Source: Actinophytocola xanthii (GTDB lineage Bacteria; Actinomycetota; Actinomycetes; Mycobacteriales; Pseudonocardiaceae). From it: 63,479 nucleotides of DNA. The notes below the pieces were generated by a model. That model searched no databases, was not told the DNA's origin, and saw nothing but the letters and a program-made list of their open reading frames with translations. Made by a program: the position numbers and the translations under genes. Location of the stretch: the NCBI RefSeq assembly GCF_001921205.1, contig NZ_MSIE01000061.1, forward strand, positions 1 to 63,479, read 5' to 3'. Numbering within the stretch: position 1 is the first letter of the stretch; every line of letters begins with the position of its first letter. This document shows positions 29,770 to 37,503 of the stretch, piece after piece.

Positions 29770-30609
29770 ATGGCGATCGCACTTCCCCAGGCCCAGGTCC
29801 TGCCGCCGACCGAGGCGGACACCTATGCGGAATGGTTCGCCTGCCTCGCCGAGCCCGTCCGGGTGCGGTTGCTGCACGCGGTGGCGACCAGTCAGAAGGG
29901 CATCACGGTCGGCGCGCTCACCCAGATCCTGGGCACCAGCCAGTCCACCACCTCACACCACGTGCGCAAGCTCGCCGACGTGGGTTTCGTGCGGCTGCGC
30001 AAGGAGGGCACCGCAACCATCGTCACGGTCAACGAGGCCTGCTGCGCCGGCCTGCCGCATGCCGCGGACGCGGTCATGGGGCTGCTCGGCCCGCGCCCCT
30101 GCTGCCCCGAGGACCTCCCGCACGACGTCACCGTGCGGGCCCTGGAACCCGGCGACTGGGCCGCCGTCCGCCGGATCTACGCCGAGGGCATCGCGACCGG
30201 CCTTGCCACCTTCGAGACCGGCGTCCCGAGCCGGACCGCGCTCGACGCGAAGTGGCTGCCCGACCACCGCTGGGTAGCGGTCATCGAGGACGAGGTGGTG
30301 GGCTGGACGGCCGCCGCCCCCACCTCGTCCCGCGACTGCTACGCCGGGGTCGCCGAGACCTCCATCTACGTGGCCGACGGGAACCGGGGCCGGGGCATCG
30401 GCAAGGCGCTGCTGCACAAGCAGGTCACCGCGGCCGACGAGGGCGGGCTCTGGACGCTCCAGACCGCGATCTTCACCGAGAACCGGCCCAGCATCGCCCT
30501 GCACCACACGGCCGGCTACCGCACCGTGGGCATCCGCGAACGCATCGCCCAGCGTGACGGCGTCTGGCACGACACCGTGCTGCTGGAACGGCGCTCGCCC
30601 GTGCGCTGA
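29770..30609 (+). CDS. ArsR-type repressor fused to an arsinothricin/phosphinothricin N-acetyltransferase-like domain
   Basis: A 279-residue two-domain protein. Residues 1 to about 100 form an ArsR winged helix (L-A-E-P-V-R-V-R-L-L-H, T-S-Q-S-T-T-S-H-H-V-R-K-L). A Cys-rich joint follows (E-A-C-C-A-G-L and R-P-C-C-P-E-D-L) that could bind arsenite. Residues about 118-279 are a GNAT domain very like ArsN/PAT enzymes (G-W-T-A-A-A-P-T-S-S-R, E-T-S-I-Y-V, R-G-R-G-I-G-K-A-L-L). Such enzymes detoxify organoarsenical or phosphinate glutamate analogues. Sensor and resistance enzyme are thus on one chain, probably self-regulated. No arsB, acr3 or arsC lies nearby. Confidence 0.88.
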   Translation: MAIALPQAQVLPPTEADTYAEWFACLAEPVRVRLLHAVATSQKGITVGALTQILGTSQSTTSHHVRKLADVGFVRLRKEGTATIVTVNEACCAGLPHAADAVMGLLGPRPCCPEDLPHDVTVRALEPGDWAAVRRIYAEGIATGLATFETGVPSRTALDAKWLPDHRWVAVIEDEVVGWTAAAPTSSRDCYAGVAETSIYVADGNRGRGIGKALLHKQVTAADEGGLWTLQTAIFTENRPSIALHHTAGYRTVGIRERIAQRDGVWHDTVLLERRSPVR

Positions 30610-30617
30610 GGGATCAG

Positions 30618-31574
30618 TCAGCCCTGCAGCGCCGCCCAGACCTCGCGGTCCCGTTCGGCCGTCCACACCCGCGGCCAGTCGACACCCCCCAGCTCGTCCC
30701 AGTACCGCTGGATGTTGAACGGCAGGCAGTGCTCGAAGATCGGCCATCCGCCGAACTCGGGAGCCAGCGCCGCATGGGCCGCGGCGAACGCCTCGGCAAC
30801 CGTGCCGGACCGGCCGTGCACCTCGCCGACGGTGCGCCGCAGCTCGTCGAGGAAGTGGCGGCTCTGGGCGATCGCCGCGGCCACGGCCGCCTCGCCGACC
30901 ACCACCGGCCCGCGGCCGCCGACCAGCGCCCGGGCCGGGAAGGCGGCCACCTCGTCCAGCGTGGAGGTCGCCCACTCGTCGTGGAAGGCATCGCCGGTGT
31001 AGAGCGCGGCCCTGGCCTCCACCAGGTCACCGGCGAACAGGATCCGCTCGTGCGGTAACCAGGCCACGATGTCGCCGGCGGTGTGGCCGCGGCCGCAGTG
31101 GGCGAGCACCAGCTCCCGCTCCCCACCGAGCGGGATCGTCATCCGGTCGGAGAACGTCAGGGTCGGCCAGCTCAGGCCGGGAATCGAGGCCGGCTCCTCG
31201 AACAGCCGCGGCATCCGCCCGAGCTCGGACTCCCAGTCCGCCTGCCCGCGCTCGGCGATCAGGTGCCTGGTCCGCTCGTGGGCGATGATCTCGGCTGCGG
31301 CGAAAGCACTTGCGCCGAGCACCCGCACCGCGTGGTAGTGGCTCAGCACCAGGTGGCGCACCGGCTTGTCGGTGCGCTCGCGCAGCCGCCCCAGCCACCG
31401 CCGCGCGGCGACCGGTGTCGCCCTGGCCTCGAAGCAGACGAGGAAGTCCTCCCCCTCGACCGCACCGACGTTCGGGTCCCCCTCCGCGGTGAGCGCGTAC
31501 ACCCCGTCCGCGATCTCGGTGAACGTCTCCGCCTTCGCCTCGGTGTCCCCGCTGGACGCAAACGTCTTCGCCAC
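30618..31574 (-). CDS. Metallo-beta-lactamase-fold hydrolase with non-standard HxHxxR metal motif
   Basis: A 318-residue MBL-fold protein from GTG 31574. The first metal motif reads S-H-Y-H-A-V-R-V (H79, H81), so the Asp and third His of the usual H-x-H-x-D-H are replaced. The later ligands G-H-T-A-G-D and F-A-G-D-L-V-E are kept. Loss of the Asp should weaken or remove the second metal site. The C-terminal part of about 100 residues ends Y-W-D-E-L-G-G-V-D-W-P-R-V-W. I recall a group of such proteins linked to quinoprotein or thiol oxidation, but cannot confirm it. It follows the choD-like gene by 23 bp and may be in its operon. Confidence 0.85.
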   Translation of the reverse strand: MAKTFASSGDTEAKAETFTEIADGVYALTAEGDPNVGAVEGEDFLVCFEARATPVAARRWLGRLRERTDKPVRHLVLSHYHAVRVLGASAFAAAEIIAHERTRHLIAERGQADWESELGRMPRLFEEPASIPGLSWPTLTFSDRMTIPLGGERELVLAHCGRGHTAGDIVAWLPHERILFAGDLVEARAALYTGDAFHDEWATSTLDEVAAFPARALVGGRGPVVVGEAAVAAAIAQSRHFLDELRRTVGEVHGRSGTVAEAFAAAHAALAPEFGGWPIFEHCLPFNIQRYWDELGGVDWPRVWTAERDREVWAALQG

Positions 31575-31597
31575 CCCACCACCCTGCCACGCGGCGG

Positions 31598-33319
31598 TCA
31601 CTCGGTGGGCGAGTAGCGCTGCGCGTTCCTGGTCGGGGCCGGGGAGATGAACAGGGCGGCCGGTGCCGTCGGCGGGACCGCGGGGTCGGCCGGCGGGACC
31701 GGCTCAAGGCGCTGGTAGGGCGCGCCGGGAGCCGGGCGTGGGTCCGGGTCGCCCTTGTTGGGCCAGAGGGAGAACGCGCGCTCGGCCTGGGCGGTGATCG
31801 TCAGCGACGGGTTGACCCCCAGGTTCGCCGAGATCGTCGAACCGTCCACCACCGACAGGTCCGGGTAGTTGTGGACGCGGTGGTACGGGTCGATCACCCC
31901 CTCCTCCGCCGAGGCGCCGATCGGGCAGCCGCCGATGAAGTGTGCGGTCAGCGGGATGTTGAAGACCTCGCTCCAGGCACCGCCCGCCATGCCGTCGATG
32001 TGCTTGGCGGCCAACTGGTTCGCCTCGTACCCGGCGCGGATGAACGTGGGGTTGGGCTCGCCGTGACCCTGGCGCGAGGTGACCCGACGGCGACCGAACA
32101 GACCGCGCCGGGTGTAGGTCGTGATCGAGTTGTCCCGGCTCTGCATCACCAGCAGGATCACCGTCCGCTCGCTCCAGCGGTGCACGCGCAGCAGCTGGGC
32201 GCTGCGCACCGGGTGCCGGACCAGGAAGCGCAGCGCCTGAAGCCAGCGCGGCGTCGCGGCCGCGCCGTCGGTCGCGATCGTCTGGAGCAGACCCATCGCG
32301 TTGCTGCCCGGCCCGTACCGGACCGGCTCGATATGGGTGATCTCGTCGGGGTGGATCGACGAGGTGATGGCCACGCCGCGGCTGAAGTCGCGCTCCGGAT
32401 CGACGCTGGTCCGGGCAGCGCCGACGATCGACTCGGAGTTCGTGCGGGTGAGCTCGCCGAGGCGGGGTGACAGGTGCGGCAGCACACCGGTGTCGCGCAT
32501 CCGGTGCAGCAGCTGCTGGGTGCCCCAGGTTCCCGCGGCGAGCACGACCCGGCGGGCGGTGACCGTGGCGCGGGCGCGCCCGCCGGTGCGACGCAGGTCG
32601 ACGTCGAACCCGCCGCCGGCCCTGGGTCGCAGCGCGGTCACCGTGGTCAGCGGCAGCACCTTCGCCCCGCCCCGCTCTGCGAGGTACAGGTAGTTCTTGA
32701 CCAGCGTGTTCTTCGCGCCGACCCGGCACCCGGTCATGCACGAGCCGCACTCGGTGCACCCGGTCCGCGCCGGCCCGGCGCCGCCGAAGAACGGGTCGGG
32801 CATGGTCTCCCCCGGGCGGCCGAAGTACACGCCGACCGGCGTCGGGTGGAAGGTCTCGGGGACGCCCATGTCGGCGGCGACCTTGCGCATCACCTCGTCC
32901 GCCGGCGTCGTGCTCGGGTTGGTGACCACCCCGAACATCTTCGAGGCCTGGTCGTAGTGCGGGGCGAGCTCGGCCTCCCAGTCGGTGATGTGCGCCCACT
33001 GCCGGTCGGCGTAGAACGGGGCGAGCGGCCGGTAGAGGGTGTTGGCGTACACCAGCGAGCCGCCGCCGACACCGGCCCCGGCCAGCACCATCACGTCCCT
33101 GAGCAGGTGGATCCGCTGGATGCCGAAGCAGCCCAGCGCCGGCGCCCACAGGTACCGGCGCAGGTCTCAGGACGTCTTGGCGAACTCGTCGTCGGCGAAG
33201 CGGCGACCGGCCTCGACCACCGCCACCCGGTAGCCCTTCTCGGTCAGCCGCAGGGCGGCGACGCTCCCGCCGAACCCCGAGCCGACAACCACCACGTCGT
33301 AGTCCAGCAGCTCGTCCAT
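31598..33319 (-). pseudogene. choD: GMC oxidoreductase (cholesterol-oxidase-like, ChoD/Rv3409c type) interrupted by one in-frame TGA
   Basis: The full frame has 574 codons from ATG 33319 ([21 protein letters not shown], the FAD dinucleotide fold) to 31598. Codon 51 (33169-33167) is TGA where the reading S-[stop]-D-L-R-R-Y-L-W points to an original TGG Trp. No shift of frame is needed. Everything downstream is intact: G-A-G-V-G-G-G-S-L-V-Y-A-N, Cys-rich T-E-C-G-S-C-M-T-G-C, and H-F-I-G-G-C-P-I-G-A near the end. A restart at 33094 or nearby would lack the FAD-binding fold. Position next to guaB3 matches M. tuberculosis choD. A recent nonsense mutation, a sequencing error or readthrough are all possible. 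Confidence 0.85.
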
Positions 33320-33329
33320 GGAACCGAGG

Positions 33330-34358
33330 CTACTCGTCAGTACGTAACTTCCCGAAGTGCACGAGATCACGCCGCACCCCGCCGCGCAGCTGGGCACCGC
33401 GCAGCACGCCCTCACGCGTGAACCCCGCCTTGGCCAGCGCCTTCTGCTCGGCGATGTTGTCCACGTCGGTGCTCGCCTCGACCCGGTCGACCTCGGTCGT
33501 GGCGAACAGGTGCTCGGCGAGCAGCCGCTGGGCCGTCGAGCCGACACCGCGGCCGCGCTCGGGCGGCAGCAGGCCGATGCCGATGTTCCAGGCCGAGCAG
33601 CCCAGCGTGCCGCCGTAGTCCACCGCGTGCCAGCTCACCCCGCCGAGCAGCGTTCGGGTCGCGGCGTCCAGCACGCTCAGCAGGGAGCTGCGGGCGGGGA
33701 GGGTGACCTGGGGCCGGTCGTCCCGGTCGACCTCGAAGTCGCCCGCCGCCTCGACGTAGAACTTCTCCCGCTCGCCGGCCACCGGCACCGCGAGCGCCAC
33801 CCCGTCCCGCTCGATCACCACCTCGCGCTCACCGCCGGACGGGGGCGGCGGGGTCAGGTCCGCGCGGAGCAGTCCGAACAACAGCATGTCCCGGTGCTCC
33901 CCGGCCCGCGCTCGGGCGCCCCGCAGGACACCTTCGGCCCGGAACCCGCCCCGCCCGAGCACGCGCTGGGCCGCCACGTTCTCGACCTCCACGCTGGCCT
34001 CGAGCCGGTGCAGGTCGGTCGTCTCGAACAGGTGCGCGACGAACAACCGCAGCGTGCGCAGGCCGACACCCCGGCCGCGGGCGGCCGGCAACAGGCTCAT
34101 CCCGACGTTCCAGGCCGCGGTCGCCTCGGTGCGGCCGCGGGACACCGCGTTCCAGCTCACCTGCCCGACGAGCTCGCCGTCGGAGAGGTCGACGACGGCC
34201 AGCCGGTGCACCACGACGTCGGTCGGCGGGCGGCGGTCGTCCTCCTCGGCGTCGAAGGCGCCGTCGCCGCGCCGGTCGAGCAGCTCCGCGTCGCCCTCGA
34301 GCACCTCGGCCAGCGCGACGTGGCCGCTGGAGTTGAGAACCTTCCGCCGAACCGTCAC
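33330..34358 (-). CDS. Tandem GNAT acetyltransferase (two RimJ/RimL-like domains in one chain)
   Basis: A 342-residue protein made of two related acetyltransferase domains. The first (about 1-165) has [17 protein letters not shown] and the second (about 180-342) [17 protein letters not shown]. Both have the R-x-x-G-x-G acetyl-CoA loop and a closing [10 protein letters not shown] or [10 protein letters not shown] segment. GTG 34358 overlaps the guaB3 stop as GTGA, so it is translationally coupled. It sits between guaB3 and the choD-like gene, a place with no counterpart in M. tuberculosis. The substrate is unknown; protein N-termini or aminoacyl compounds are typical. Confidence 0.88.
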
Positions 34359-35488
34359 GCCCGCACCGTCAGGCCGACCTTCTGGAACTCCTTCACGTCG
34401 GAGTAGCCGGTCTTGGCCATCGCCCTGCGCAGCGCGCCGAACAGGTTGATCACCCCGTCGGCGTCGGAGGACGGGCCGAACAGCAGCGTGCGCAGGTCGA
34501 CGACCTCCTCGCCGAACCCCACCGGGACGACCTTGCTGCGCGGCAGCGACGGGTGCGCGGCCGAGGGGCTCCAGTACAGCCCCTTGCCCGGCGCCTCGGC
34601 GGCCAGCGCCAGCGGTGCGCCGAGCATGACCGCGTCCGCACCGCAGGCGATCGACTTGGCGATGTCGCCGGAGACGTGCACGCCGCCGTCCGCGATCACG
34701 TGCACGTACCGCCCGCCGGTCTCGTCGAGGTAGTCCCGCCGCGCGGCCGCCGCGTCGACGATCGCGGTGGCCATGGGGACGCCGATGCCGAGCACGCTGT
34801 CGGTGGTGGAGGCAACGCTGGTGCCGTACCCGACGATCACCCCGGCGGCGCCGGTGCGCATCAGGTGCATGGCAGTGCGGTAGTCGTGCACCCCGCCGGC
34901 CACCACGGGCACGTCGAGGTCGGCGATGAAGTTCTTGAGGTTCAGCGGTTCGCCGCCGCTGGCGACGTGCTCGGCGGAGACGATCGTGCCCAGCACGACC
35001 AGGATCTCCACCCCCGCGGCCAGCAGGACCGGGGTCAGCTGGGCCGCCCGCTGCGGGCTCACCCGCGCGGCGGCGGTGACCCCGGCAGCGGTGATCTTCT
35101 TGATGGTCTCCGCGATCAGCTCCTCGCGGATCGGCGCGGCGTGCAGCTCCTGCAGCAGCCGGGTGAGCGCGGTGGGGTCCGGGTCCTCGGTGGCCTGCTG
35201 GAGCCGCTCCAGAGCCCCCTCCGCGTCGGCGTGCCGCGCCCACAGGCCCTCGGCGTCGAGCACGCCGAGGCCGCCGAGCTCGCCCACCGCCACCGCTGTC
35301 GCCGGCGAGACGATCGCGTCGGTCGGGTGCGTCATCAGCGGGATGTCGAACCGGTAGGCGTCGATCTGCCAGGCCGTCGACACGTCGCCCGACGAGCGGG
35401 TGCGACGGGAGGGCACGATCTGCACCTCGTCCAGCCCGAAGGCGCGACGGGCCGTCCGGCCCATGCCGATCTCGACAAGATCCCGCAC
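34355..35488 (-). CDS. guaB3: GuaB3-family IMP-dehydrogenase-related protein
   Basis: A 377-residue TIM-barrel protein of the GuaB3 group found in actinobacteria, shorter than true IMPDH because it lacks CBS domains. It opens V-R-D-L-V-E-I-G-M-G-R-T-A-R-R and has phosphate-binding G-G-V-H-V-S-G-D-I-A-K-S-I-A-C-G-A-D-A-V-M-L-G. The usual IMPDH catalytic Cys loop is not visible (V-I-V-G-Y-G-T-S-V-A-S-T-T at that place). The role is debated; GMP-reductase-like activity has been proposed for some relatives. GTG 35488 has a GGAG ribosome site. It is 38 bp after guaB in one operon. Confidence 0.92.
   Translation of the reverse strand: MRDLVEIGMGRTARRAFGLDEVQIVPSRRTRSSGDVSTAWQIDAYRFDIPLMTHPTDAIVSPATAVAVGELGGLGVLDAEGLWARHADAEGALERLQQATEDPDPTALTRLLQELHAAPIREELIAETIKKITAAGVTAAARVSPQRAAQLTPVLLAAGVEILVVLGTIVSAEHVASGGEPLNLKNFIADLDVPVVAGGVHDYRTAMHLMRTGAAGVIVGYGTSVASTTDSVLGIGVPMATAIVDAAAARRDYLDETGGRYVHVIADGGVHVSGDIAKSIACGADAVMLGAPLALAAEAPGKGLYWSPSAAHPSLPRSKVVPVGFGEEVVDLRTLLFGPSSDADGVINLFGALRRAMAKTGYSDVKEFQKVGLTVRA

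Positions 35489-35526: not shown

Positions 35527-37503
<1,977 letters not shown>

Follow-up and report, generated by a model that had tools for sequence, protein, structure and literature searches.

Our analysis of a 63,479-nucleotide stretch of Actinophytocola xanthii DNA (contig NZ_MSIE01000061.1, here referred to as the window) revealed a choD-like gene of the GMC oxidoreductase type that is interrupted by an in-frame TGA codon. We consider it probable that this gene, the single one of its kind in the strain, was inactivated by a nonsense (opal) mutation of very recent date. This reading is favored because the interrupted codon is TGG in 111/111 relatives, the two pieces of the gene are in register and the sequence downstream is undecayed, and also because the genome carries one copy at an E value of ≤1e-30, the gene appears dispensable in the family and no dedicated recoding was found.

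The interrupted gene, its neighbors and its relatives

The choD-like open reading frame (ORF) occupies positions 33319-31598 on the minus strand, from an ATG start codon at 33319-33317 to a natural TGA stop codon at 31598-31600. As the original prediction had described, it contains a single in-frame TGA (33167-33169, codon 51, minus strand), with the same frame on either side. The N-terminal piece (33170..33319, minus strand) comprises 50 codons from the ATG and encodes the beta-alpha-beta start of an FAD-binding fold, and the rest of the gene (31598..33166, minus strand) encodes the GMC oxidoreductase portion. The latter had been predicted to hold 523 intact codons; it is indeed open, the correct count being 522 sense codons plus the stop TGA. 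When the two pieces were searched separately against Pfam and NCBIfam, the FAD-binding start and both the N- and C-terminal GMC domains were recovered. Specifically, the C-terminal piece matched Pfam GMC_oxred_N and GMC_oxred_C, and the N-terminal piece matched FAD_binding_2/DAO and positions 4-48 of the cholesterol oxidase profile NF058674 (E value of 7.9e-18, 64.2 bits), in agreement with the FAD-binding fold expected in the first 50 codons. Since the C-terminal piece covered positions 52-535 of the same profile (E value of 2.3e-140, 468.6 bits), the TGA lies at the expected join; the family cut-off of 850 bits was reached by neither piece on its own. In a PDB search, the C-terminal piece matched cholesterol oxidases, e.g., 1coy and 1b4v, and the best named relative of the gene was found in Actinophytocola gossypii (88% identity).

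The gene is embedded in a cluster on the minus strand that consists of guaB, encoding IMP dehydrogenase (35527..37140; TIGR01302, E value of 1.9e-181), the IMP dehydrogenase-related guaB3 (34355..35488; TIGR01304, E value of 1.9e-167), a gene for a double GNAT acetyltransferase directly ahead of choD (33330..34331, putative start), choD itself, and a gene for a metallo-beta-lactamase-fold (MBL) hydrolase (30618..31601; Pfam Lactamase_B). The order is the same in all five congeners, with extra sequence separating guaB3 from the GNAT gene in congeners G003 (approximately 1.1 kb) and G001 (approximately 0.6 kb) and choD from the MBL gene in G004 (approximately 0.8 kb). Hence, the claim that choD adjoins guaB3 was off by one gene, as the GNAT gene intervenes here and in the five congeners. 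M. tuberculosis Rv3409c is the namesake of ChoD. The gene resembles actinobacterial ChoD-type cholesterol oxidases of NF058674 in the register of both pieces and in its guaB-guaB3 neighborhood but differs from them in the TGA at codon 51 and in the GNAT gene that separates guaB3 from choD. The predicted GTG start codon of the MBL gene overlaps the choD stop codon by 4 nt (GTGA, 31598-31601), and the MBL gene may be translationally coupled to choD; because of this overlap, the early choD stop may also reduce expression of the MBL gene. The window also encodes, at 29770-30606, an ArsR/MarR-like helix-turn-helix fused to a GNAT domain that resembles the arsinothricin acetyltransferase ArsN1, below the cut-off of that family (131.4 of 170 bits).

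Alignment of relatives, which the original prediction had proposed as a check, upheld the change from TGG to TGA at a conserved Trp. With the C-terminal piece as the query, every one of the 111 homologous loci, including all five congeners and two distant paralogues, carried TGG at the TGA position, and neither Cys nor Sec occurred there. These loci represent 101 distinct stretches, as some apparently derive from one genome held in two collections. Within the alignments, in-frame stops were found in 6 loci only, all at window codon 558 or beyond, at the natural C terminus. At an E value of ≤1e-30, the A. xanthii genome contains one choD-like copy; across the rest of the genus group of six genomes, three congeners contain one and two contain two. 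In the family sample, with up to five candidates scored per genome, a match at an E value of ≤1e-100 was obtained in 262 of 297 genomes and was absent in 35. Judged by this distribution, the choD-like gene is common, not universal, and dispensable in the family.

The remainder of the gene is undecayed, as had been proposed. Over the first 490 codons downstream of the TGA, pairwise dN/dS values between the window and the five congeners ranged from 0.139 to 0.210, compared with 0.154 to 0.225 for the other congener pairs. In a set of 109 loci (L090 and L091 left out) plus the window, amounting to 100 distinct sequences, the window deviated at 1 of 203 columns conserved at ≥98%; in the whole set (n = 100), 60 sequences showed zero deviations and 24 showed one. 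Because there is no decay downstream, the change at codon 51 would be very recent, not real or without effect.

Fresh single-nonsense pseudogenes are a known kind in bacterial genomes. The choD-like gene resembles them in its lone stop of the substitution type, in flanks that are open, in codon evolution that is not relaxed and in the intact copies of all five congeners; nothing about the case is distinctive, and its putative stop is that of a draft assembly. If the base is real, the gene lacks one continuous frame for an FAD enzyme. The first in-frame ATG, GTG or TTG beyond the TGA is at 33094, 25 codons downstream and past the FAD-binding motif. The stop is thus absent from relatives, the gene is present in one copy and no restart precedes the lost motif, a combination expected of a nonsense pseudogene. 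In the mechanism that we propose, translation would begin at 33319 and end after 50 residues at the opal codon, and a product restarted at 33094, beyond the FAD-binding motif, should not bind FAD. We infer a genuine base, efficient termination and a nonfunctional product, in which case choD would constitute a fresh null allele within the otherwise conserved guaB-guaB3-GNAT-choD-MBL cluster.

Possible sequence or assembly error

The most serious alternative, which we regard as possible but clearly less probable, is that the TGA represents a consensus base-call or assembly error and that the gene is intact in the living strain, with TGG at this codon. The A. xanthii genome is an 8.34-Mb draft in 204 contigs, and a wrong base is as consistent with zero decay of the choD-like gene as a real mutation is. 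Furthermore, a read of the plus strand crosses an inverted repeat (33136-33161), GGC (33157-33159) and GGT (33163-33165) before it reaches base 33167. These are contexts after which Illumina miscalls have been reported (PMC3622629), although this genome may have been sequenced on another platform. The repeat corresponds to a GC-rich hairpin on the minus strand (33136..33161) that starts 5 nt after the TGA and, of 75 homologues, shows the most stable fold. On the other hand, according to the same source, such miscalls are strand biased, so that a consensus from both strands usually escapes them, and GGC and GGT alone are not reliable predictors. In addition, 102 of 4,000 random TGAs are followed by a fold as stable as that of ChoD or better.

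Nor does the assembly look error-ridden, because few candidates for same-frame stops in coding sequence were found: a scan for such stops with a strong codon-bias signal on both sides yielded 8 in 863,731 bases of the genome, the window included, and 4 in 361,836 bases of congener G002. The scan is not fully sensitive, being blind to frameshifts and having missed the known TGA of the formate dehydrogenase (FDH) gene. The window TGA is the candidate shown to split one family match; the other seven, mostly judged by eye, mostly resemble adjacent genes, as does the one that recurs in G002. Another of the seven lies on contig C101 (L269:10422-11012), where one TGA separates two short open stretches that share a frame and each show strong codon bias. 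Neither stretch has a Pfam match at an E value of ≤1e-5, and they may represent another interrupted gene or adjacent genes.

Within the window, 46,469 bases were aligned to congener ORFs at ≥55% identity, with 137 of 164 kept ORFs matched. These alignments, of which each registers its first stop only, flagged stops at nine positions, together with a possible frameshift close to 45262. The stop at 33169 was registered from four of the five congeners; the G003 ORF is overextended upstream of choD, and its first registered stop lies at 33637. Judged by eye, the other eight stops look like gene ends, alignment gaps, or overextended or antisense frames. General decay or poor assembly was rejected as an account on the basis of these alignments and the codon-bias scan.

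Possible translation of the UGA codon

A null allele would also be called into question if the UGA were leaky, i.e., if near-cognate tRNA-Trp read it at low frequency, restored the native residue and allowed some enzyme to be made. We consider this unlikely. PMC5289835 documents low-level misreading of UGA by tRNA-Trp in E. coli and B. subtilis, and here such misreading would insert the ancestral residue, encoded by TGG in all relatives examined. The constraint on choD is unrelaxed, which recency explains equally well. Against leakiness, the tRNA-Trp matches those of congeners G003 and G004, which have TGG, at 100% identity, and the RF2 gene is open and scores over its cut-off. Moreover, the +4 base here is G, whereas for bacteria PMC5289835 singles out C and A at this position; for yeast, it describes UGA-G as favoring tRNA-Cys. 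That the UGA is translated, most likely as Trp via near-cognate tRNA-Trp, with the allele being silent or tuning ChoD and the possibly coupled hydrolase, seems to us very improbable.

A suppressor tRNA or altered termination was rejected, since tRNA-Trp and RF2 look normal and the tRNA list contained no extra UCA tRNA. ARAGORN found none besides tRNA-Sec among 48 RF00005 matches (30 as loci and 18 within 17 short stretches) and the tRNA-Sec stretch, a list that is probably incomplete, as it contains no serine tRNA with a UGA anticodon. The genome also carries a tRNA-like gene with the anticodon UUA (62.4 bits) on the minus strand of contig C134 (55097-55170; L175:98-171 and L295:1501-1574), just upstream of an ORF of approximately 111 codons without a Pfam match. 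It would read UAA, not UGA. Its relatives form a tandem pair in congener G001 (89% and 87%), in which ARAGORN reads two-base anticodons only; a weak match in G004 is tRNA-Val, and no match was found in G002, G003 or G005. It may be a tRNA mimic in a degenerate state or act as an ochre suppressor.

Finally, recoding of the UGA as selenocysteine by means of the following hairpin and the SelB and tRNA-Sec that serve the FDH of this genome is barely credible to us. The machinery is present: a selenocysteine island on contig C101 (48199-56543) encodes tRNA-Sec (TCA anticodon), SelB (over its family cut-off) and an FDH whose gene contains a single in-frame TGA. ChoD thus resembles bacterial selenoprotein genes, such as the FDH alpha gene of the same genome, in that a hairpin follows its in-frame UGA and the genome supplies both SelB and tRNA-Sec. 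In addition, when 40 nt counted from the ChoD UGA are folded, the energy is -22.8 kcal/mol, which ranks first of 75 homologues (mean of -12.8 and standard deviation of 3.4 kcal/mol, window included) and corresponds to a z score of -2.41 against shuffles. Longer folds are less unusual, however, with z scores of -1.67 (52 nt) and -0.85 (70 nt). The hairpin also satisfies a loose SECIS-like rule that we based in part on the description in PMC1088965, which calls for a G within a small apical loop. Across the 30 FDH loci, all 31 pattern matches conform to this rule, but it is undiscriminating, as 37 of 77 Trp homologues and 1,675 of 4,000 random TGAs conform as well. The homologue sets for folding (75) and for the loose rule (78) consist of distinct pattern-matching sequences, window included, and so do not take in every locus.

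Comparison with the FDH sites argued against a selenocysteine element in ChoD. The FDH family search matched 163 of 297 genomes, with no match at an E value of ≤1e-100 in congeners G004 and G005. Among the best 30 loci (11 distinct sites, the genome's own included), U17 and the loop GGUCU at 22-26 were invariant; these are known determinants of the E. coli fdhF element. ChoD lacks both, having A17 and the loop UGUG at 20-23. The 11 distinct sites were used to build a covariance model, which scored the genome's own FDH site, itself a training row, at 66.6 bits, while the ChoD hairpin was not among the 49 matches of this model in the window. Searched alone, the ChoD stretch scored below zero over the stem (-3.7 bits), its top score of 0.2 bits being a five-base match on the opposite strand. 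A search of 32900-33500 against Rfam returned six matches, every one of them far under the gathering score. ChoD differs from selenoprotein genes also in that its relatives carry Trp at the site and not Cys, whereas Sec reportedly arises from redox Cys (PMC1794560). Selenocysteine recoding was rejected on the FDH-site comparison, the covariance model and the random-TGA control; the ChoD hairpin, which is not a SECIS by the standard of this genome's FDH, is a product of GC-rich codons and does not speak for recoding. Collectively, two of the three options originally offered, a recent mutation and a base-call error, stand, and programmed readthrough is unsupported because there is no extra UCA tRNA among the tRNA matches scanned, tRNA-Trp and RF2 are normal and an FDH-type SECIS is absent.

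Function and meaning of the choD-like gene

The cholesterol oxidase activity of M. tuberculosis ChoD is disputed, and the gene is dispensable there for cholesterol use; in M. smegmatis, a ChoD homologue has been linked to glycopeptidolipid acetylation (both as stated in PMC11060060). The presence of the GNAT gene ahead of choD, both here and in the five congeners, would fit a function outside cholesterol catabolism. The finding is ordinary, and the general picture is unchanged whether the base is real or an error, the latter being a matter for curators. Should the base prove real, the strain would be a natural null for a widely kept and poorly understood oxidase, one that could help to probe the role of this enzyme outside cholesterol breakdown.
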